From Verrucomicrobiota bacterium (lineage in GTDB: Bacteria > Verrucomicrobiota > Verrucomicrobiia > Chthoniobacterales > UBA6821): DNA of 64,000 nucleotides. Shown one piece after another: positions 39,571-43,344 of this stretch (position 1 is the first letter of the stretch; each line of letters begins with the position of its first letter). The notes beneath the pieces were generated by a model, which had not been told where the DNA came from, ran no database searches, and saw only the letters and a list, made by a program, of their open reading frames with translations. The DNA lies in contig JAIOPL010000006.1 in assembly GCA_021413925.1 (NCBI GenBank), forward strand, positions 62,001 through 126,000, read 5' to 3'. The translations under genes and the position numbers were made by a program.

Positions 39571-40830
<1,260 letters not shown>

Positions 40831-40837
40831 GCTAGGC

Positions 40838-41030
40838 CATTTGGTGCTGAGTGGTGTTGGTCACTGCGGTTGCAAAGCCGAGTGCTGGGAAGCATGGATT
40901 AGCCTATGTCTTGTCATAGCCCGGAGAGCGAGACCGTCGGGAGACGTCGAGGCAATAGCTGTACTACAGATCCCTTGACCGCATGACTCTTCCCTCAAAG
41001 TACCGTCGCTCTAGCACCAAAGTGCTTTTT
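40838..41030 (+). ncRNA. Candidate structured RNA with intrinsic terminator
   Basis: Gene-free stretch after murA with nested complementarity. TTTGGTGCT (40840-40848) pairs with AGCACCAAA (41013-41021). Inside, GTCACTGCGGT (40860-40870) pairs with ACCGCATGAC (40978-40987) with one bulged C. Two hairpins carry GGGA (GNRA) tetraloops: TGCT-GGGA-AGCA (40883-40894) and CGTC-GGGA-GACG (40935-40946). CTATG/CATAG closes a third hairpin (40904-40919). The 3' end AGCAC-CAAA-GTGCT-TTTT (41013-41030) is a short terminator competing with the outer stem. About 190 nt, 6S-like in size, but no recognised family. Confidence 0.5.
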
Positions 41031-41349
41031 GACCCCCAAACCGAGCCTCAGTTGTCTTTGGGGACGGGTTGACTCTGTAGTGGAGTCTGTTTTCGGTCGC
41101 GGCGGTTTGTGAGGCAACAGGGATCTTGGATACATCCCGCCCAGCAGCCGGTTGGTCTTGGGAGGGGTCGGGTGAAGGGCCCTTGTCCGTAAGCAGGTGA
41201 CAAAACATCCTCTCTTTTATCCGCAAGGATTTCGGGAGGCAGTGTGTCTTCCTGTTGCTTTGAACCCTTTGCCATAACGGGGTATTTACTCCTTCTCCAT
41301 ATCCAGAAAAAGCAGAATCTTTGCAGAGTCGTTCGGAAGGAAGGGTTTA
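41031..41349. other. Gene-poor stretch between candidate RNA and acsA terminator
   Basis: About 320 nt with no convincing gene. A minus-strand 75-codon frame (41275-41048) begins plausibly (MAKGSKQQEDTLPPEILADK) then turns Cys/Pro-rich without recognisable domain, and a second frame overlaps it (41226-41011). They could reflect a frameshifted small protein, or nothing. A leader for the candidate RNA on the minus strand is another possibility. Confidence 0.35.
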
Positions 41350-41373
41350 CCCATCTCCGATGAAGGAGATGGG
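41350..41373. terminator. 9-bp hairpin terminator downstream of acsA
   Basis: CCCATCTCC (41350-41358) pairs perfectly with GGAGATGGG (41365-41373) across loop GATGAA, followed on the plus strand by TGTTCCTTTTT. It is probably the acsA terminator (minus strand) and could also stop plus-strand transcripts from the candidate RNA side. Confidence 0.7.
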
Positions 41374-41397
41374 TGTTCCTTTTTAAGTTTTGAGGGA

Positions 41398-43344
<1,947 letters not shown>

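Follow-up and report, generated by a model that had tools for sequence, protein, structure and literature searches.

The element that directly follows murA in the window, that is, in the whole 64,000-nt stretch of Verrucomicrobiota DNA analysed here, is, on comparison of its copies, a composite of two nested, dispersed, non-coding hairpin repeats: a palindrome that we call H and a module, M, lying inside the top of H. The composite appears to be a kind of small non-autonomous palindromic mobile element, and the M family is absent from Rfam. The explanation as a whole, namely that a mobile M sits in H, that it would travel by a single-stranded DNA route and that the two would form a passive 3′ end at murA, seems to us probable. 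The first-pass annotation had proposed a possible new structured RNA of about 190 nt between murA and acs. That the element is structured, shows compensatory changes and is outside Rfam holds, whereas a dedicated RNA gene or switch is not supported: in some species a genome holds dozens of copies, which follow unrelated genes, and the stretch taken for one RNA of 190 nt consists of two repeats, one nested in the other. The features of the region are as follows (positions in the window).

39571–40830, + strand: murA, 419 aa (from the ORF list); its stop codon is immediately 5′ of the element
40835–40874, + strand: left arm of H, a diverged copy of the outer palindrome (compared with the empty H copies L016 and L121)
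40840–40848, + strand: 5′ strand of the outer stem, TTTGGTGCT; other copies have GGCTTGG, and the H consensus stem has compensatory pairs
40875–40954, + strand: M, read as an inserted mobile module of 80 nt (covariance-model match; filled and empty orthologous sites), in the order hairpin 1, TAG, hairpins A, B and C, with GAGGCA at the end
40882–40895, + strand: hairpin 1 of M, GTGCT-GGGA-AGCAT (helix 2 of the covariation test)
40899–40902, + strand: TTAG, corresponding to the GTAG tag that marks the foot of the branched part (copy alignments)
40904–40919, + strand: hairpin A of M, CTATG-TCTTGT-CATAG; the usual loop is a GNA triloop (helix 4; loop counts)
40920–40931, + strand: hairpin B of M, degenerate in the window copy; consensus CCC-GNA/GNNA-GGG (alignment, loop counts)
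40933–40948, + strand: hairpin C of M, ACCGTC-GGGA-GACGTC, with one mismatch and a perfect core at 40935–40946 (helix 6)
40955–41021, + strand: right arm of H (comparison of copies)
41013–41030, + strand: weak hairpin AGCAC-CAAA-GTGCT with T4 behind it, resembling a terminator; overlaps the outer stem and is below the terminator-scan threshold
41048–41275, − strand: conserved small ORF of 75 aa with the motif GPFTRPLPRPTGCWAGC..PCCLTNR.DRK; one open conserved frame in 11 genomes, outside the repeat
41398–43344, − strand: acs, encoding a 648-aa acetyl-CoA synthetase-like protein and convergent with murA (identity read from sequence)

The mobility of M is deduced from sites and nesting rather than from watched movement: M is a mobile module because orthologous sites occur with and without it and because it lies nested in other copies of itself. 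Although all 16 genus genomes have murA, M is lacking downstream of it in 13, two of which encode a 98% identical MurA; the locus carries an empty H in G014 and G003 and H with M in G001, G005 and the present genome. Downstream of a TPR-repeat-like gene, H is empty in G009, G002 and G004 and filled in G001, and in the present genome it holds an M with a second module inside the hairpin-1 tetraloop of the first. The junctions at occupied sites are precise. At a further locus (L142 compared with L014; G003 filled, G000 empty) the empty site reads GCTCGCA^GTAG and the filled one GCTCGCA-[M]-ATAG, an exact insertion of ~81 bp. GCA flanks the insertion in H on both sides, which may be a micro-homology of 2–3 nt instead of a target-site duplication. 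Nesting is also seen in hairpin-C tetraloops, where five loci (L074, L157, L158, L160 and L176) can be compared with the intact hosts L044 and L155. Complementary flanks showed no general excess over 116 copies in a permutation test (mean 3.58 against 3.50); general loop targeting through flank complementarity was thus rejected, and insertion into hairpin loops is claimed for particular documented hosts only.

Seven loci (L070, L172, L058, L159, L185, L091 and L065) present another arrangement, in which partial copies of a tRNA-Gly 3′ end (GGAGCGGGTRRAGGGAA^TCGAACC, antisense) stand in tandem behind the intact tRNA-Gly, with M exactly at the T-loop position in each; it looks as if insertion brings a replacement tRNA 3′ end. 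That M could be an intron of tRNA genes was considered and discarded, given that the joined flanks yield no tRNA and that an intact tRNA-Gly adjoins the M-bearing partial copies. In-frame insertion in genes was likewise set aside: the apparent in-ORF copies that were checked, L173 and L068, sit at gene ends or in fragments. To the right of M at L098 and L038 there is a TCCC-loop stretch (GGCACTTTGC-TCCC-GCAAAGCCGTGCC), which looks like a related module lying the other way round in the same H element.

How widespread are these repeats? A DNA search of same-genus genomes disclosed two separate conserved stretches in the murA–acs gap, the first of which (40831–41010) has several copies per genome in the genus. 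With a covariance model of M built from 21 copies, whose counts are lower bounds, we found at least 21 copies in the own genome and at least 66 in the relative G006, M being present in every one of the 16 genus genomes and in 30 of the 213 from the order; of 387 genomes sampled across the phylum beyond the order, one has matches. The window copy is a diverged one, scoring 77 bits over 40852–40957 against 127 for the best copy. Exact core matches in database records come from Spartobacteria MAGs, one of them named UBA6821, and a record titled Proteobacteria is apparently the identical contig to one from a genus genome. H is a dispersed palindrome of ~97 bp with more than 100 matches in 16 of the 16 genomes, mostly without M. 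The genus bearing both repeats comprises freshwater Spartobacteria of the UBA6821 type. No match to M was obtained in phage, plasmid and viral contig collections. In the Rfam covariance search of the window and 39 distinct loci, tRNAs alone scored above gathering thresholds; the families without a match include 6S, SRP, tmRNA and RNase P, for which the first-pass annotation had seen no diagnostic motif, and at permissive E-values the matches other than tRNAs were chance ones.

M follows murA, purB, the TPR-like gene, tRNA-Gly and many more genes. Its copies show no conserved link to a gene class of the kind expected of a riboswitch or cis-regulatory element, and they lie preferentially downstream of a co-oriented gene (42 against 19, p 0.004, a rough, ORF-based count). 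At L101, L152, L155, L159, L167, L182 and L187, module-in-module runs contain many GNNA hairpins; such runs form long branched intergenic structures, mainly in G006. Downstream of murA in G001 (L109, G001:C50), repeats of ~36 bp (GCTTTGCCTTGATTCCAATTCAGGGGCAGAGAAACT) with spacers of ~30 bp come directly after H and M and look like a CRISPR array.

Contrary to what had been assumed, the remainder of the gap does contain a gene-like feature, as the minus-strand ORF at 41048–41275 is conserved in 11 genomes of the genus, at about one copy per genome and in changing gene neighbourhoods. It encodes a cysteine-containing product with no Pfam match, and the core aligns without gaps among relatives, with one frame kept. 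The block at 41075–41324 was considered as a second RNA and rejected, its nearly gap-free alignment and single conserved frame being those of the small ORF. Further on, a terminator hairpin at 41348–41381 (TACCCATCTCC-GATGAA-GGAGATGGGTG followed by a T tract) has a core of 25–33 nt that recurs at several sites in genus genomes.

Of the pairings noticed at the outset in the murA-downstream element, the following are present. The 9-bp outer stem joins TTTGGTGCT (40840–40848) to AGCACCAAA (41013–41021), both GGGA hairpins are found at 40882–40895 and 40933–40948, and the T-tailed hairpin at 41013–41030, which is weak and unlisted by the terminator scan, has one strand in common with the outer stem; nothing was found in support of the mutually exclusive folds proposed for them. 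Taken alone, the 195-nt sequence gives a fold z of −1.22, with 19 of 200 shuffles equally good, and in the minimum free energy fold of the window copy the middle is paired to the outer arms. Comparison of copies contradicts this fold, in that the middle folds independently. The compensatory changes looked for in relatives are present: in M they affect 9 pairs, with 20 cells changed on both sides, which none of 500 shuffles matched (the structure being fixed beforehand), and shifting the partners by 1–3 columns abolishes pairing; in the H palindrome they affect 12 of 23 pairs.

Does this structure act as RNA or as DNA? An RNA GNRA loop needs a purine at the third loop position. In hairpins A and B of M, purines and pyrimidines are about equally frequent there; GNA accounts for 97 of the 129 triloops of the two hairpins, and GNNA for 38 of the 43 tetraloops of hairpin B, yet just 19 are GNRA. 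In the well-aligned helices of M, namely those of hairpin 1, hairpin A and the closing stem, Watson-Crick pairs make up 92% of the cells and G-U pairs 2.7%. Loops of the form C-GNA-G and C-GNNA-G are extraordinarily stable DNA mini-hairpins (PMC4686876). Because the loops of A and B fit this rule better than GNRA and G-U pairs are few, we read loop rule and stem pairing, with moderate confidence, as the trace of selection acting on a single strand of DNA in its folded state. The comparative structure was recovered in 22 of 112 M copies with DNA energy parameters against 14 with RNA parameters, a difference too slight to decide between the two. What counts against the DNA reading is that in hairpin 1 G-U pairs exceed A-C pairs (22 against 4), as expected from RNA-level selection.

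A model of how M may spread can be outlined. M would travel as a folded single DNA strand, either the lagging strand or another exposed one, and would enter the loop or the upper part of a pre-existing hairpin. The source strand would display the very stable C-GNA-G and C-GNNA-G mini-hairpins, which might serve a trans-acting enzyme or replication-coupled template switching. At murA, the element would be a passive part of the 3′ end, lending it structure and a weak terminator in the way suggested for REP repeats, and this is the simplest reading, rather than a dedicated regulatory RNA. We advance only tentatively the more specific proposal that M is a self-nesting DNA mini-hairpin module that enters hairpin loops, whether those of palindromes, those of other M copies or the T-loop in tRNA-Gly 3′-end copies, and whose mover is neither RAYT nor a known transposase. 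A search of the 16 genomes for RRXRR (IscB), the gene linked to an IscB/HEARO omega RNA, gave no match, its controls being silent too.

Two other routes of mobility have to be weighed, and we think both unlikely. In the first, M would be transcribed, joined as RNA to the loops of other structured RNAs by ligation or reverse splicing, and then converted into DNA again. Such a route has been proposed for the GC clusters of yeast mitochondria (PMC4478555), and it would suit the nesting of M precisely in tetraloops and at the T-loop-like ends of tRNA-Gly copies; against it, the loop rule is that of DNA mini-hairpins, G-U pairs are very few and no ribozyme family was matched. In the second, which we hold to be similarly improbable, M would be a GTAG-tagged REP of the Opitutus terrae type, mobilised by a RAYT, that is, a Y1 HUH transposase. 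GTAG repeats are known in Verrucomicrobia (PMC3733652), M is extragenic and downstream of genes, and a (G)TAG is conserved at the foot of its branched palindrome, the majority consensus before the branched stem being GTAG and the window copy TTAG. However, REPs of this class are single stem-loops of 20–40 bp and M, with 80–84 nt and four hairpins, is ~2–4 times as long, and the repeat-flanked RAYT of such systems is almost missing from the genus: of the order's 213 genomes, 173 carry Y1/RAYT transposases, as against only 2 of the 16 in the genus. These enzymes have therefore either been lost or are not the mover of M, and no M copy adjoins any of the three Y1 genes found, in the flanks examined. 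A RAYT partner for M was rejected on this distribution, M being present in 16 of 16 genomes.

A dedicated structured RNA gene or a cis-regulatory element of murA or acs, favoured by the compensatory changes, the G-U pairs tolerated in hairpin 1 and the presence of M after murA in three species, is highly improbable, since M is missing at murA in most of the genus, including the relatives closest by MurA, and has no tie to a gene class, and dozens of copies after unrelated genes, a promoter scan showing no promoter-like site nearby and the lack of an Rfam match speak against it as well.

Small palindromic elements are common, and how those without a recognisable transposase spread is a long-standing question. 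Here, a single lineage combines occupied and empty sites, nested insertions, a loop rule suggestive of single-stranded DNA and the near-loss of the usual transposase, and this conjunction makes competing models of mobility testable. The case also calls for caution, because what seems a new structured RNA with covariation can be a DNA hairpin that is mobile.

How does the composite of H and M compare with known systems? Rickettsia palindromic elements are mobile palindromes of ~100 nt scattered in the genome that insert in frame in genes, whereas the apparent in-gene M copies that were checked lie at gene ends or in gene fragments. Integron attC sites, which occur in cassette arrays as single long hairpins with extrahelical bases and R″/R′ boxes, differ by inspection from the four-hairpin M. 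Non-autonomous MITEs of the IS200/IS605 type resemble M in their short subterminal hairpins, their non-coding nature, the CAA at the module end and a possible single-stranded DNA route, but 14 of the 16 genomes have no Y1 partner for M. The GC clusters, such as yeast GC42, and double-hairpin elements of mitochondria (PMC4478555) are likewise short, GC-rich, non-coding hairpins with presence/absence polymorphism at homologous sites, which merge into one another and have no known enzyme; they also have short direct repeats at the junction, with which the GCA on both sides of M may compare. Being organellar, and of other sequence and architecture, they offer an analogy only. Compared with the GTAG-tagged REP/BIME repeats described by Di Nocera et al. 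(2013), who also name the Rickettsia elements, O. terrae being among the Verrucomicrobia that carry such repeats (PMC3733652), M differs in its GNA/GNNA loops and in inserting into hairpins, both those of other repeats and those of M itself, and it shares with them a dispersed, extragenic, palindromic and lineage-restricted occurrence downstream of genes, a GTAG-like tag at the 5′ foot and stems that vary while the architecture is conserved.
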